DNA from: Chloroflexota bacterium
GTDB taxonomy: Bacteria > Chloroflexota > Dehalococcoidia > Lucifugimonadales > Lucifugimonadaceae
Length of the DNA: 19,772 nucleotides
Assembly: GCA_009837685.1 (NCBI GenBank)
Contig: VXTA01000103.1
Location: forward strand, 1-19,772
Direction: 5' to 3'
Of this stretch, positions 4,094-18,794 are shown one piece after another; the first letter of the stretch is position 1, and each line of letters opens with the position of its first letter. Made by a program: the position numbers and the translations under genes. Below the pieces are notes generated by a model. The model did not search any database, was not told the origin of the DNA, and saw nothing but the letters and a program-made list of their open reading frames with translations.

Positions 4094-6211
4094 ATGATGT
4101 ACGTGGGGAAATACGGCTCTTCAGCGCGGCGCGGCATCCTTTTCGCGGTCGCAATCGTGCTCAGTGGAGCGTTCGCGTTGATGATCGCGTGTACTTCCGA
4201 CAGCGAGACTGAAACCGCAATAGTCGAAACGGGCGAGCCCGAAGTAAAAGCGGTTGCTACCGATACGCAACCCGCATCTGGTGCCGCTGAAAAAACCACA
4301 GCCCAAAACCCTCCTAGATTCACCCGGACCCCAACCTTTACCGTTACATCGACATTCACTGCGACCGCGACGCACACTCCTGTACCAACTGATACACCGA
4401 GTCCGGAACCAACACCTACTTACACACCTACACCTACGTCTACGCCGACTTACACGCCAGTTCCGACACCTACCGACACGCCCACACCCGTTCCAACCTC
4501 CACTGCCACTCCAATCCCTCCGACACCGACACCGACGCCTGTTCCTACGGATACCGCAACGCCGACCGCGACCGCAACACCAGAAGTGGATATCTCTGTA
4601 ACGCTCGATCTCATCGACGAGCTGATCAAGTTGTCGACGGCTCTCGTCGAATTGAGCGCAATTTCTATCGAAGAGTGGGATTGGGATGAAGTCGAGGCGT
4701 TGACGAGTCGTAACACATTGCTGATGGAGCAGGTAGCGGAGTTAGAAGCCGCCTCAGAGGGCGAGCGTTCACCGGAACTTGACCAACTCGTCGAACTCGC
4801 CAGGCTGAACGAGGAAAATATAAAGCCGTTACGCGCCCTGATGGAAGCACCACCTGAGCCGACCGCTACCCCTACACCGGAACCAACCGCAACCTCTACG
4901 CCCGAACCGTCGCCTACGCCTACGCCGACCGATACACCCACGCCTACACCGACCCCTGAGCCGACCGACACTCCAACGCCGACTCCAACCCCGACGATTA
5001 CACCAACGCCGACCCCTGAACCCATAACGGATTTGACGCTCCGTTGGACATTCCAAACCGGCGCGTCTGGTAGCGTCGCTACCACCGCATCTAATGCGGA
5101 TTTAACCGTACGCGACGGAGTAGTTTACGCGGGTTCAAAAGACAACAAGATCTACGCCATCTACGCATCATCGGGCCAAGAAAAATGGTCTTACAACACG
5201 GGCAGTGATGTCACAAGTGGCGGAGTATTAAGTGCAGACGGAGCGATCCTCTATTTCGGTACCGACCACACCGGATTCTTCGCCCTAGACACTGATGATG
5301 GATCGAGGCGTTGGTGCTACCGATGCGATGAGGATGATCGGAGCGACTCGTTTGAAACAAAGCCGACGATCTATGAAGACATGGTGATCGCCCCAGCAAA
5401 TGGTCGTGTCTACGCCTTCAACGCGGATAGAACGAGCGAAGACGAGGGTAGACTGCTATGGGCAAACCCGAGGATCGGTCAAGACCCTGAAGATTGGCGA
5501 TTCATAGAAGCTGGTACCGCACACCGGGATGCGTTCTACATTGGGAATGGCCAAGCGGATAGCGACGGTACGTTGCACGGTTTCCATACGGACACTGGTG
5601 GACGCAACGGGAATGCTCGGTTGCGCGGGACGCAAATGCCCTATTGTCAAGAGGACGAAGACTGTAGAGGCGGAGGCGAGGATCTTGAGCCTTTGCGAAC
5701 CGCTGTCGTGCGAAACGGTCCCGATATCTACTTTGGCAACGACGCGGGTGAGCTTATCCAATACACCAGCAATACCATTAGCTGGGTCTTTACCACAGCA
5801 TCGAAGCGCAACGTACGGGGAGACATCGCCGCAACGGAAGAGATCGTGGTTTTCTCGGATCGTTCAGGTGCGATCTACGCCGTAAACCCAGATCGGGAAG
5901 AAGCAACTAAGAGAACCTCCGGCACCGGCAAAAAACCGGAACGGCTATGGGTGGAGTCTACCGAGGAGCGAAGATGGATTGCTGGAGGCCCGGTGATCAG
6001 CGGTGACTACGTTTACGTCATTGACAGTCACGGGCTCCTATACATGATTGACCTGGAACGGGGTGATACCCAATACACGTTGGACCTCTGGCCGGGCGAT
6101 GATCCGTGTGTGTCTTGCAGGTCAACCCCAGCCATCGAAGACGACATGCTCTTCGTCGGCACTCAAGAAGGCACTATCGTGGGTGTTCAACTGCCGATTT
6201 ACTCCGATTAG
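4094..6211 (+). CDS. Secreted lipoprotein with Thr/Pro-rich stalks and PQQ-like beta-propeller
   Basis: A 705-residue surface protein. Residues 12-33 form a lipoprotein signal (RR, hydrophobic core, MIAC with Cys33 as the lipidated residue; Met at -3 is slightly unusual). Thr/Pro-rich low-complexity stalks occupy about 78-163 and 254-310. They flank an acidic helical module (about 166-250) with heptad-like leucines. From about 315 to the end there are repeated blades of PQQ-like/WD type (DGVVYAGSKDNKIYAI, DGAILYFGTDHTGFFALD, GDYVYVIDSHGLLYMID, DDMLFVGTQEGTIVGV). Cys pairs (408/411, PYCQEDEDC, DPCVSC) suggest disulfides outside the cell. Stalks of this kind are common in Chloroflexota exported proteins. 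The propeller may bind a ligand or assemble a complex; no catalytic residues are recognised. The adjacent genes give no clear hint. Confidence 0.85.
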   Translation: MMYVGKYGSSARRGILFAVAIVLSGAFALMIACTSDSETETAIVETGEPEVKAVATDTQPASGAAEKTTAQNPPRFTRTPTFTVTSTFTATATHTPVPTDTPSPEPTPTYTPTPTSTPTYTPVPTPTDTPTPVPTSTATPIPPTPTPTPVPTDTATPTATATPEVDISVTLDLIDELIKLSTALVELSAISIEEWDWDEVEALTSRNTLLMEQVAELEAASEGERSPELDQLVELARLNEENIKPLRALMEAPPEPTATPTPEPTATSTPEPSPTPTPTDTPTPTPTPEPTDTPTPTPTPTITPTPTPEPITDLTLRWTFQTGASGSVATTASNADLTVRDGVVYAGSKDNKIYAIYASSGQEKWSYNTGSDVTSGGVLSADGAILYFGTDHTGFFALDTDDGSRRWCYRCDEDDRSDSFETKPTIYEDMVIAPANGRVYAFNADRTSEDEGRLLWANPRIGQDPEDWRFIEAGTAHRDAFYIGNGQADSDGTLHGFHTDTGGRNGNARLRGTQMPYCQEDEDCRGGGEDLEPLRTAVVRNGPDIYFGNDAGELIQYTSNTISWVFTTASKRNVRGDIAATEEIVVFSDRSGAIYAVNPDREEATKRTSGTGKKPERLWVESTEERRWIAGGPVISGDYVYVIDSHGLLYMIDLERGDTQYTLDLWPGDDPCVSCRSTPAIEDDMLFVGTQEGTIVGVQLPIYSD
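4325..4582 (+). repeat. Thr/Pro-rich low-complexity coding repeat, block 1
   Basis: Imperfect codon-level repeats of ACN-CCN (Thr-Pro) with inserted Val, Ser, Asp and Ala. They encode an extended, probably glycosylated stalk of the lipoprotein. The opposite strand is open over long stretches as Gly/Val repeats purely because of this composition. Confidence 0.8.
4853..5023 (+). repeat. Thr/Pro/Glu-rich low-complexity coding repeat, block 2
   Basis: A second repeat block in the same gene, more regular than the first and with recurring Pro-Glu-Pro-Thr units (TATPTPEPT-like). It connects the helical module to the beta-propeller. Such tracts tend to vary in length between strains by slippage or recombination. 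Confidence 0.75.
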
Positions 6212-16541: not shown

Positions 16542-16802
16542 ATGCCTGCAGCCAAATCAATGCGCGTTCAGCGTCGCCGAGCGGCGCGAAATCGATCCGT
16601 GCGTTCCTTCGTGCGGACGCGCGTCGCGGCCGCACGTAGCGCGATCGACCAGTCACCATCCGACGAAGCGACAGCCGAGTCCCTCCGAGCGGCGATCAGC
16701 GCGTTGGATGTTGCCACCCGAAAAGGCGTCATTCATCGCAACCAATCCTCCCGCAAAAAGAGCCGGTTGACCAAGCGCCTCAACAAAGCTCTCGCGAGCT
16801 GA
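16542..16802 (+). CDS. rpsT: 30S ribosomal protein S20
   Basis: An 86-residue, strongly basic helical protein (MPAAKSMRVQRRRAARNRSVRS... ending KKSRLTKRLNKALAS) of normal S20 length. It binds the 5' domain and the helix 44 region of 16S rRNA early in 30S assembly. The typical C-terminal block 'kGvIHkNqAaRkkSRL' is present as KGVIHRNQSSRKKSRL. The ATG at 16542 is supported by an AAAGG site six bases upstream and by family length; the frame opens earlier at 16461 without family similarity. It follows rel after a leader that carries a 12-bp hairpin. Its TGA overlaps an ATG (TGATG) of the next reading frame. Confidence 0.95.
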   Translation: MPAAKSMRVQRRRAARNRSVRSFVRTRVAAARSAIDQSPSDEATAESLRAAISALDVATRKGVIHRNQSSRKKSRLTKRLNKALAS

Positions 16803-16818
16803 TGCTCCCGAATCAAGG

Positions 16819-16865
16819 TCCTCCCCTTTCCCCTCTGGGGGAAGTGCCGAAGGCGATGGGGGCCG
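16819..16865 (+). repeat. Palindromic GC-rich repeat, copy A
   Basis: Starts with TCCTCCCCTTT, has a C-run/TCT/G-run palindrome (CCCCTCTGGGG) and ends with the conserved tail GCCGAAGGCGATGGGGG. Counted by eye, copy A and copy B differ at only about five of 47 positions with no gaps. It lies at the junction of rpsT and the His-rich gene and provides that gene's likely ATG (16856). Confidence 0.8.
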
Positions 16866-17347
16866 ACCAACATCACCATCACGACGACGCGTCAGACGAA
16901 CACGTCCACACACATGGCACCGTCTCGTACGACGAGCCGCAATCGCGTTACAAGTGGCAAATACATCACCCCTTCGAAGACATCCACCACCGCGCGGCGA
17001 TCGAGGTCGCACCTTGGTCGGGGTTGCTACCACGTTGGCGGTTCATCATCCCATCCGATTACGAAGGATTGGTTAGATGGGGTGTAGGTCCACCCGGCGC
17101 TACGGAGATCAGCCTCGAAGCCGTACGACGACCGGTACGTCACGGACCCGTTCAACTAACTGACGGGCCAGAGGTAGAGTGGCTCGGCGGCCACAACCCG
17201 CTGTCCAACTCACTGAGCGCATACATCGTCATCGACGGCGACCCTCCGCACTACCTCGCCTTTGGACAATCCGAAGAACCCGAAGGCCCACCCACATCGC
17301 TCGAAGGCATCTACTTCGCCGCACACCACGAACCACACCCGCACTAG
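16856..17347 (+). CDS. His-rich protein of unknown function
   Basis: A 163-residue protein with no family I recognise. It has a His/Asp-rich start (HHHHDDASDEHVHTHG), which could bind metal, and ends in HHEPHPH. In between it looks like a beta-rich domain (RWRFIIPSDYEGLVRWGVGPPGATEISLEAV, SAYIVIDGDPPHYLAFG), possibly a small jelly-roll-like fold. No signal peptide is present. The ATG at 16856 lies inside palindromic repeat copy A and is preceded by GGGGGAAG about 11 bases upstream. A longer form starts at 16802, overlapping the rpsT stop; its first 18 residues are repeat-derived and it lacks a ribosome site. A hairpin follows the stop. It could be a metal-binding or sensor protein, but this is a guess from composition only. 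Confidence 0.65.
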   Translation: MGADQHHHHDDASDEHVHTHGTVSYDEPQSRYKWQIHHPFEDIHHRAAIEVAPWSGLLPRWRFIIPSDYEGLVRWGVGPPGATEISLEAVRRPVRHGPVQLTDGPEVEWLGGHNPLSNSLSAYIVIDGDPPHYLAFGQSEEPEGPPTSLEGIYFAAHHEPHPH

Positions 17348-17358
17348 AGACCTTTGTT

Positions 17359-17418
17359 CCTCCCCTTTTTGCGAAGCAAAAGGGGGGACGCTGCGAGCAC
17401 AGCGAGGCGCAGGAGGTT
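17359..17418 (+). repeat. Diverged palindromic repeat copy D / terminator-like hairpin
   Basis: Starting 12 bases after the stop of the His-rich gene. CCTCCCCTTTTTGC and GCAAAAGGGGGG pair around a GAA loop (about 11 pairs, one bulged T); the GCGAAGC core is known as an unusually stable mini-hairpin. The TCCTCCCCTTT head (from 17358) is identical to copy A, and the AGGCGCAGGAGG tail resembles the AGGCGATGGGGG tail, so it may be a diverged family member acting as a terminator. Confidence 0.5.
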
Positions 17419-17480: not shown

Positions 17481-18794
17481 ATGACCGAAACGGTCCAATG
17501 TGATCTCCGCATTAACGGTGGACAGCTCCTAAACACCGACACCGCGACGCTTGCCCAAGGCGACATCGCCGTTAAAGGCGATCAAGTAATCGCGATCGAA
17601 AACGTCCCCGAAAACCACGTCGCAACCCGCACCATCGACGCCTCCGGCCTAGTCGTAACCCCCGGGATCATCGACCTCCATACCCACGTAGCAGGCGGAC
17701 TCCGTCGCTCTTCGCCATACGTCGAAGACATGATGCAAGACGCCGACCTCGCAGGCGTCCATTCAGGTGTCACGACCCTCGTCGACGCCGGATCCTGCGG
17801 CATCTCCAACATCGGCGGCCTAGTCAACCACGTCATCCCAAACGCCAAGACCCGTGTCCTTGCCCTCCTCAACGTCGGCTCCCTAGGCGTCAACCGCATT
17901 CCCGAAGTAACCTCCGCTCTCGACATCGAACATGATGAGGCAGTCGCAACGATCGATGCGAGGCGCGACATCATCATCGGAGTAAAGGCCAGAATGGTCT
18001 CACCCGGCATCTCCGAACTTGGCATGAACCTTCCGAAAGCAGCTAAAGCTATCGCAAACGATGCCGGCGTGCGCCTGATGGTCCACGTTGGCGATACTAC
18101 CGGGCAGTCAGATGAAGCCCTGAATGCCGCGCCGAAAATCCTCGCTGAACTACTCACCGAAAACGACATCGTGACTCACTCTTTCAGTGGCGCAAGGGGC
18201 GGACTCCTTTCTTCCCCTTCCCCCTCTGGGGGGAGTGCCGCAGGCGATGGGGGCCGGACACTCCTCCGCGAAGCACTCGACGCCCGCGCCCGCGGCGTAA
18301 AGTTCGACATCGGAGTCGGAGGCAAAAACTTCTCCTTCGACGCCGCGAAACGAGTTCTAGACGGCGGCCTAATACCCGACACCATCAGCTCCGACGTAAC
18401 CCTTCAAAGCCGATATGTCGGCACCTCCTTCTCGCAGATGGACTGCATTGGCAAAGTCATCTCCCTAGGCATCACACTCGAAGACGCACTCGTCATGTCG
18501 ACGCGCAGCCCAGCCGCCGTCCTTTCATCTTCCCTTCCCCCGCTTCTCGGGGAAAGGGCCGAAGGCGATGGGGGTTTCGAGCAAATGCTAGGCTGCATGG
18601 CCCCCGGCACCCAAGCCGACCTCACCATCCTCCGCATCCACGAAGGCGAATGGGAATACATCGATGGCGACGGCCAAATCAACATTGGCCCATACGCCCT
18701 CGAACCCGTCTCATGCATCCGCGCCGGCCAAGTCATGCCCATAGACTATGGCCCCAGAGAAGGCGGTTGGCTACCCAACCGGAAACGAACATGA
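17481..18794 (+). CDS. Binuclear amidohydrolase/deacetylase family metallohydrolase with two in-frame repeat insertions
   Basis: A 437-residue amidohydrolase of the dihydroorotase / D-aminoacylase-like deacetylase group. Metal-site residues are visible: H67 and H69 in DLHTH, the carbamylated Lys K169 in IGVKARM, H202 (VHVGD), H233 (THSFSG) and D305 (SSDVT). The C-terminal cap strand reads LGCMAPGTQADLTIL. Two stretches do not fit the family and are encoded by palindromic repeat copies B (about 242-259) and C (about 348-365). Both lie in loops between conserved blocks and preserve frame, so the enzyme may remain active. Relatives hydrolyse N-acyl amino acids, hydantoins or similar amides. The next gene overlaps by four bases (ATGA), pointing to coupled translation with a PLP enzyme. 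The exact substrate is unknown. Confidence 0.88.
   Translation: MTETVQCDLRINGGQLLNTDTATLAQGDIAVKGDQVIAIENVPENHVATRTIDASGLVVTPGIIDLHTHVAGGLRRSSPYVEDMMQDADLAGVHSGVTTLVDAGSCGISNIGGLVNHVIPNAKTRVLALLNVGSLGVNRIPEVTSALDIEHDEAVATIDARRDIIIGVKARMVSPGISELGMNLPKAAKAIANDAGVRLMVHVGDTTGQSDEALNAAPKILAELLTENDIVTHSFSGARGGLLSSPSPSGGSAAGDGGRTLLREALDARARGVKFDIGVGGKNFSFDAAKRVLDGGLIPDTISSDVTLQSRYVGTSFSQMDCIGKVISLGITLEDALVMSTRSPAAVLSSSLPPLLGERAEGDGGFEQMLGCMAPGTQADLTILRIHEGEWEYIDGDGQINIGPYALEPVSCIRAGQVMPIDYGPREGGWLPNRKRT
18205..18258 (+). repeat. Palindromic GC-rich repeat, copy B, inserted in frame in the amidohydrolase gene
   Basis: Contains TTCCCCTTCCCCCTCTGG and the tail GCCGCAGGCGATGGGGGCC, nearly identical to copy A. 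It encodes about 18 residues (LLSSPSPSGGSAAGDGGR) immediately after the conserved THSFSGARGG block. Confidence 0.85.
18524..18577 (+). repeat. Palindromic GC-rich repeat, copy C, inserted in frame in the amidohydrolase gene
   Basis: Contains CTTCCC repeats, a stem TTCCCC/GGGGAA and the tail GCCGAAGGCGATGGGGG, identical to that of copy A over 17 bases. It encodes LSSSLPPLLGERAEGDGG between 'STRSPAAV' and 'LGCMAPGTQADL', where relatives have a short loop. Confidence 0.85.

Follow-up and report, generated by a model that had tools for sequence, protein, structure and literature searches.

Palindromic repeats inserted in frame in two loops of a Dehalococcoidia amidohydrolase, and filling of the same loops by different repeats in related genomes

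The amidohydrolase gene at positions 17481-18794 (+) of the DNA analysed here (the window: 19,772 nt, one whole contig, C52, of genome G000, which comprises 1.92 Mb in 356 contigs and is 77% complete) contains two copies of a short palindromic repeat in its reading frame. Our preferred explanation, to which we assign a probability of about 85%, is that in-frame repeats are tolerated in two loops of a functional-looking enzyme, that the set of repeats we see has been filtered, and that the same loops are refilled by different repeats. The repeat possesses stop-free frames, and the protein-borne ones tend to encode hydrophilic, linker-like peptides; therefore, according to this explanation, a loop could tolerate a copy that alters the length of the gene by a net multiple of three nucleotides. 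Selection would remove most other copies arising in genes, so that a filtered set is observed, and the same loops would have been occupied several times, with the repeat differing from one species to another.

The repeat is represented in the window by three copies, all on the forward strand: copy A (16819-16865), located in frame near the N-terminus of the ORF 16802-17347 (+), where it encodes the peptide PPLSPLGEVPKAMGA, and copies B (18210-18256) and C (18531-18577), both in frame of the amidohydrolase ORF. B and C are 91% and 64% identical to A, respectively, and A is read in another frame of the repeat (PLGEVPKAMG) than B and C. The core GCCGAAGGCGATGGGG has 3 matches in the window with up to 3 mismatches, compared to 0.30 expected, and this number was reached in 0 of 200 shuffles. 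The element is ~45 bp long and corresponds to a C-tract, a hairpin, a G-tract, a hairpin with a GAA loop, and another G-tract. Folding of copies A and B as RNA gives a three-way junction, but none of the three copies A, B and C folds better than its dinucleotide shuffles (z = 0.23, 0.40 and 0.44), hence we claim nothing from the folding energy. A similarly built element, in which a C-tract, a hairpin and a G-tract are followed by another hairpin and another G-rich arm, is found at 17357-17418 (+), between the host ORF of copy A and the amidohydrolase gene; it is reminiscent in form of family F6 from the complete chromosome described below and folds with z = -2.1 relative to shuffles. No Rfam matches were found in the window.

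The host ORF of copy A encodes a 181-aa protein with no Pfam match; its ATG overlaps the stop codon of the preceding gene, which we take to be S20-like. The site of copy A is occupied by a diverged copy in the sister genome G001 and by none in G005 and G006. At the G001 locus (L048, corresponding to 16819-16865 of the window) a longer, different sequence replaces the second hairpin of copy A, with the remaining element kept. Elsewhere in the window, a 705-aa ORF (4094-6211) contains two long Pro/Thr-rich stretches built from short degenerate repeats.

The amidohydrolase (437 aa, Pfam PF01979) exhibits the HxH, Lys, His, His and Asp set of its superfamily, and the best matches among solved structures, by sequence and fold, are 8je0, 8wzy, 2ogj and 2ics in the PDB, with the first three supporting the assignment to the superfamily. 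The residues H67, H69, K169, H202, H233 and D305, presumably the metal-binding and catalytic ones, were reported as intact by the initial annotation, made from the sequence of the window alone, and proved to be invariant in 58 of 58 aligned homologues. The same annotation proposed two in-frame repeat copies of about 18 codons each. Both copies are indeed in frame, as insert B (18207-18254, +; 16 codons, LSSPSPSGGSAAGDGG, residues 243-258) and insert C (18525-18578, +; 18 codons, SSSLPPLLGERAEGDGGF, residues 349-366). The proposed length is slightly high: the net gain relative to insert-free homologues is only 12 codons for B and 14 for C, because in each case four native codons are replaced (IGAD and GPQT in G001, respectively). 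Thus, where G001 has GGLIGADRTLL at the B site and AILGPQTEQMLG at the C site, the window has GGLLSSPSPSGGSAAGDGGRTLL and AVLSSSLPPLLGERAEGDGGFEQMLG; one junction of native and inserted sequence lies around GGLLSSPSPSGGSAAGDGGR. The comparison of 411 codons between G000 and G001 yielded dN/dS of 0.14, indicative of purifying selection. Judged from its sequence, the gene looks functional despite the inserts, which are probably translated and may be nearly neutral.

The AlphaFold2 model built with 58 sequences (mean pLDDT 69.9, pTM 0.80) places both inserts in loops, with pLDDT below 50 at residues 245-258 and 352-363; similarly low values are seen at residues 70-96, 103-121, 135-148 and 309-315. 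In the model, insert B lies between the strand 230-232, which adjoins H233, and the helix 260-270, while insert C lies between the helices 342-348 and 366-370, ahead of the C-terminal strands. In (beta/alpha)8 barrels the loop leading from a strand to the following helix is on the active-site face, which is therefore the predicted position of insert B.

Homologues with and without the inserts were obtained in a protein search that returned 1330 matches, of which the best 120 were listed; the alignment comprises the 114 sequences with a length of 400 aa or more and omits the other 6, which are shorter. Five named relatives have the same gene (one SAR202 cluster bacterium, three Dehalococcoidia and one Chloroflexi). 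The sister sequence from G001, 90% identical in the amidohydrolase, lacks both B and C. Among the 114 aligned sequences (of the best 120 of 1330), 88 lack an insert at the B site, 67 at the C site and 51 at both, and 10 have inserts at both sites together. The initial annotation held that insertion would be contradicted if homologues had equally long stretches in these two places that were conserved and free of the repeat; the alignment with insert-free homologues, which it had suggested, reveals instead that all 88 sequences without the B-site insert and all 67 without the C-site insert share the same shorter loop. The likeness to Rickettsia palindromic elements (RPEs), which insert without destroying the gene, is borne out by these close homologues, by the dN/dS value, by the low-pLDDT loops and by the in-frame copies in other genes described below. 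Sequences P0002 (93% identical) and P0003 (92% identical, from a 2.7-Mb contig) are filled at both the B and C sites, which makes an assembly artefact less likely.

The variable loops of the alignment are at sites 245 (insert B), 352 (insert C), 39 and 182, filled in 26, 47, 8 and 5 of the 114 aligned sequences, respectively, with none of the four filled in 46 (all counts among the best 120 of 1330 matches). Most fillings are repeat peptides of several kinds. Site 245 harbours the type-1 repeat, which is read there in two frames, as well as a longer C/G type, the VIPAKAGIQ type and further kinds (e.g. PLGEVPQAMG in P0010, the long type in P0030, the VIPAKAGIQ type in P0085 and P0098), and those at sites 39 and 182 include the SPSRSEGDAGAKRQQG type. 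At site 39 of P0022 a type-1 repeat peptide is nested inside another repeat peptide (QSPS...GAKRQQG). A few fillings are like no known repeat (P0060, P0068 and P0069 at site 352, P0091 and P0092 at site 245), and this, together with the abundance of Gly, Ser and Pro codons in the inserts and the variability expected of loops, could be taken as a sign of ordinary lineage-specific expansion of low-complexity loops by slippage in G/C-rich codons, with an accidental likeness to repeats. We regard such an expansion as highly improbable: the inserted DNA matches interspersed and intergenic repeats of the genome and of the genus, a reversed control pattern found 0 matches in the 60 genomes searched, and several repeat families are involved.

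A more serious alternative is that there were few gains and that the filled alleles spread between related species by homologous recombination, with the consequence that the same codon position appears to be reused. It would agree with the identical net gain of 14 codons in 40 of the 47 filled alleles at site 352, many of them from one close clade (the others gained 23 codons in 6 cases and 45 in 1), with the absence of the native residues at both sites in the listed filled alleles (save for a kept G in P0073 and P0101), and with tree neighbours that differ in the presence of an insert (P0009 vs P0031, P0010 vs P0038). On the other hand, the net gain at site 245 is 12 codons in 7 of 26 alleles, 13 in 5, 11 in 4 and other values (5 to 32) in 10, different repeats and frames are found there, and loops of GcvPB and Mfd hold different repeats in different congeners (see below). 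A single gain cannot account for such varied repeats, frames and gains at one site, and we consider exchange of a few alleles rather unlikely as the explanation. The tree of the 114 sequences, made without the insert columns, is weak (52 of 111 inner branches are drawn open). On it, the fewest state changes are 17 for site 245, 15 for site 352, 6 for site 39 and 5 for site 182, i.e. at least 43 for the four loops together; these are not counts of events, given the weak resolution of the tree and the inflation that exchange of alleles could cause.

Repeated filling of tolerant loops, our preferred reading, is also seen in other genes of the genus. The initial annotation suggested to look for the repeat peptide in other proteins of the genome; copies of the repeat lie in frame in the ORF 16802-17347 (copy A) and in Mfd (contig C61). 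Altogether, G000 has 5 convincing copies of the window type, of which 4 are in genes (A, B, C and the one in Mfd), while the fifth (contig C115) is upstream of the start of a gene presumed to be trpE-like. The Mfd locus of G000 (C61:8639-9259, L191) contains two tandem type-1 copies in frame, the first of them incomplete, and the sister G001 has one there (L192).

G004, a congener represented by the complete chromosome OX638325.1 (2,609,140 bp) and the only single-contig genome of the genus, was analysed with a simple hexamer-based gene caller of our own, which gave 2041 genes (85% coding). According to these calls, 56 copies of seven repeat families lie 20 nt or more inside a gene; most copies in G004 are intergenic (e.g. 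46 of 58 in family F2). All 6 host genes tested have a Pfam match: a class-I tRNA synthetase (which we take to be valyl), Mfd (TRCF), GcvP2, gamma-glutamyltranspeptidase, a CobT-like phosphoribosyltransferase and a PLP enzyme. The peptides encoded by the 56 in-gene copies are more hydrophilic than the other open frames of the same copies (mean Kyte-Doolittle -1.22 vs -0.84, P = 0.0034). Both top pairs of the first hairpin are of the Watson-Crick type in 42 of the 52 F2 copies with a clear C-tract; their combinations vary, the outer pair being A-T in 4 copies and the inner one T-A in 16. The remaining 10 do not pair in that register. In family F4 the G-rich half of the strand GGGAGAGGGCTAGGGTGAGGG has four GGG tracts with three-base spacers, in the form of a G-quadruplex motif.

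The orthologous loops in the other genomes of the genus, found by two chimeric searches, contain different repeats, or none, in GcvPB, Mfd, the PLP enzyme, the CobT-like enzyme and a late loop of the tRNA synthetase. The GcvPB loop carries an F4 element in G004 and F1 plus a long type in G003, is empty in G000, G001 and G002, and is slightly longer and repeat-free in G005 and G006. In the first loop of Mfd, F4 is present in G004 and, behind an F3-like sequence, in G003, a different C/G element occupies the loop in G000 and G001, and the loop is empty in G002, G005 and G006; the second is occupied by the type-1 repeat in G001, G003, G004 and, with two copies, G000, and is empty in G002, G005 and G006. 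For the PLP enzyme, G003 and G004 show three elements, G002 shows one of the long type, and G000, G001, G005 and G006 show none. In the tRNA synthetase the first loop is filled in G004 only, of four genomes compared, and the late loop in 4 of 4 (F4 as the sole element in G005, F4 together with an F6-like element in G001, F1 and F2 in G003, a longer series in G004), and the loop compared in gamma-glutamyltranspeptidase is filled in G004 only, of five genomes. The tRNA-synthetase gene of G004 (C1, about 2460424-2463522) has several elements of different families in two loops that are far apart in the protein. We infer that the recurrence of such loops reflects their permissiveness and not a targeting of the insertions.

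The orientation of the elements bears on another explanation, in which a mechanism with fixed polarity or preferred sites (a recombinase, or a process coupled to transcription or RNA) places them and the tolerance of proteins is secondary. Of the 37 in-gene copies that belong to the five families of G004 with a C-tract, a G-tract and a second G-tract, 36 are sense to their host (in 28 of 29 genes), compared to 18.1 of 37 expected if all open frames were equally likely (P about 5e-11), therefore the sense excess in G004 exceeds what stop codons explain. Between tandem genes of G004, where selection on proteins cannot act, 73 of 104 C/G-tract copies are sense and 31 antisense (P = 4.7e-5); the in-gene and intergenic orientations differ from each other (P = 0.0004). 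The orientation of F4 was set by its structure after the first counts had been seen, which weakens the case for such a mechanism and renders the pooled P values partly post hoc. The polarity is moreover at odds with families F1 and F3 of G004, which show no in-gene bias (8 sense, 11 antisense), and with the gene of the Lhr helicase in G000 (Pfam WH_Lhr; C166, L237:2-2128, -), where three elements (F4, F2, F4) are antisense in one 709-aa ORF and are true exceptions to the sense orientation. A crude count with looser patterns in available loci of the other congeners, with the strand of the gene decided by ORF length, gave 21 sense, 8 antisense and 11 unclear cases (P = 0.024); strand calls in this count are unreliable, as illustrated by the C115 copy, which is upstream of the trpE-like start, and the antisense calls other than Lhr look doubtful. 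One of them is a stretch of a membrane protein, CobS-like as we presume, without a repeat peptide. Replication strand was considered as a cause of the polarity and rejected: 77 of the C/G-tract copies of G004 are on the leading and 122 on the lagging strand (P = 0.002), and this lagging excess is opposite to that expected from co-orientation with genes, since 54% of the coding bases of G004 are on the leading strand.

The search for a mover argues further against placement by a polar mechanism, which we hold to be doubtful: a reverse transcriptase was found in 1 of the 7 genomes of the genus, and the Y1 transposase (PF01797) in 0 of 7, compared to 1 of 40 relatives and 5 of 14 control genomes. 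The core of F2 (up to 3 mismatches) occurs in 7 of the 60 genomes, all of them in the genus (24 copies in G000, 20 in G001, 44 in G002, 34 in G003, 55 in G004, 1 in G005 and 29 in G006), while the repeat type of the window occurs in 6 of 60, of which 5 are in the genus. Comparison of junctions with insert-free congeners revealed that short native stretches are replaced, not merely split, and no clear target-site duplication, a mark of MITEs of DNA transposons, was recognised there; hence the junctions do not show simple transposition. We suppose that the elements have been moved or copied by a trans-acting enzyme or by recombination.

The filling of tolerant loops by a filtered set of in-frame repeats, as preferred here, would make these repeats act like ready-made protein linkers, in a genus far from Proteobacteria that has many palindromes in core enzymes and whose orthologous loops differ in their repeats between species. 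Two old questions thereby become testable, namely what share of the diversity of protein loops mobile repeats contribute, and by what means palindromes that lack a known enzyme are spread. We speculate, tentatively, that in this genus the class of hairpin elements with a C-tract and two G-tracts is inserted or kept with a preferred polarity to transcription in genomes with no resident Y1 transposase, and continues to refill a small number of permissive loops in core enzymes. If so, orthologous proteins would gain different ready-made hydrophilic linkers in each species, and the elements would continually supply proteins with new segments, their spread involving a step coupled to RNA or transcription.

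Rickettsia is the best-known source of coding palindromes, and REPs inside genes are for the most part listed as a by-catch of intergenic families. Like the palindromic elements of Rickettsia and Wolbachia, the elements described here are palindromic, interspersed, present in frame in diverse housekeeping genes, tolerated, and represented by several families per genome. They differ from RPEs in length, ~45 bp compared to 105-146 bp according to PMC2229807, and in their occurrence in another phylum. The likeness to RPEs concerns their way of working (presence in frame in unrelated genes with insert-free orthologues, with constraint documented for the amidohydrolase only).

CGTC-tagged REPs, which according to Di Nocera et al. 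2013 (PMC3733652) include RPE-4 and RPE-6, are likewise described there as small, mostly intergenic and in some cases intragenic palindromes with no associated transposase genes. Copies A, B and C lack the CGTC tag and do not conform to this class, which has an unpaired CGTC tag at one end, a stem of 8-9 bp, a loop of 4-5 bases and CCA as the tail; unlike CGTC REPs, the repeat of the window has two hairpins and two G-tracts. Family F1 of G004 (CGTC ATTCCGGC GAAA GCCGGAAT CCA) does fit the class as outlined in PMC3733652, with the tag, an 8-bp stem starting with AT, a 4-base loop and a CCA tail. In G004, a Dehalococcoidia genome, F1 has 124 matches (up to 4 mismatches; L049-L179) to the CGTC-tagged REP core CATTCCGGCGAAAGCCGGAATCC. 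The genus thus has both the CGTC-REP class (F1) and the class of the window; the five phyla listed for CGTC repeats in the relevant passages of PMC3733652 do not include Chloroflexi.

GTAG REPs with RAYT transposases are also short palindromic repeats that at times reside inside ORFs, and they are reported for Chloroflexi in PMC3733652. Copies A, B and C have no GTAG tag, and a Y1 transposase domain (Y1_Tnp) was found in none of the 7 genomes of the genus, of which G004 alone is a single contig. REP candidates were counted in three Chloroflexota species (PMC12306157). ERIC/RU and Correia/NEMIS resemble our elements in being small, non-autonomous repeats whose copies in genes can be part of the translated frame, and differ from them in being longer and in having terminal inverted repeats and target duplications (PMC2229807); neither terminal inverted repeats nor target duplications were recognised in the elements of the window, for which the transposase search covered Y1.

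The phenomenon of intragenic palindromes is thus already known: RPEs in Rickettsia as well as GTAG and CGTC REPs in ORFs of several species are on record (PMC3733652, PMC2229807 and PMC10969869), intragenic REPs are in print for several phyla, and two species of Xanthomonas were reported to have different REPs in nearly the same position of recB (both PMC3733652). Of the small variable loci in the species compared in PMC2884548, 35-55% are reported to be intragenic without perturbing the frame. No description of palindromes inside coding genes of SAR202 or Chloroflexota was found in the passages retrieved from the open-licence PMC literature. What is new in relation to these systems is the lineage, the class of the repeat, and a reuse of loops that can be compared between congeners.
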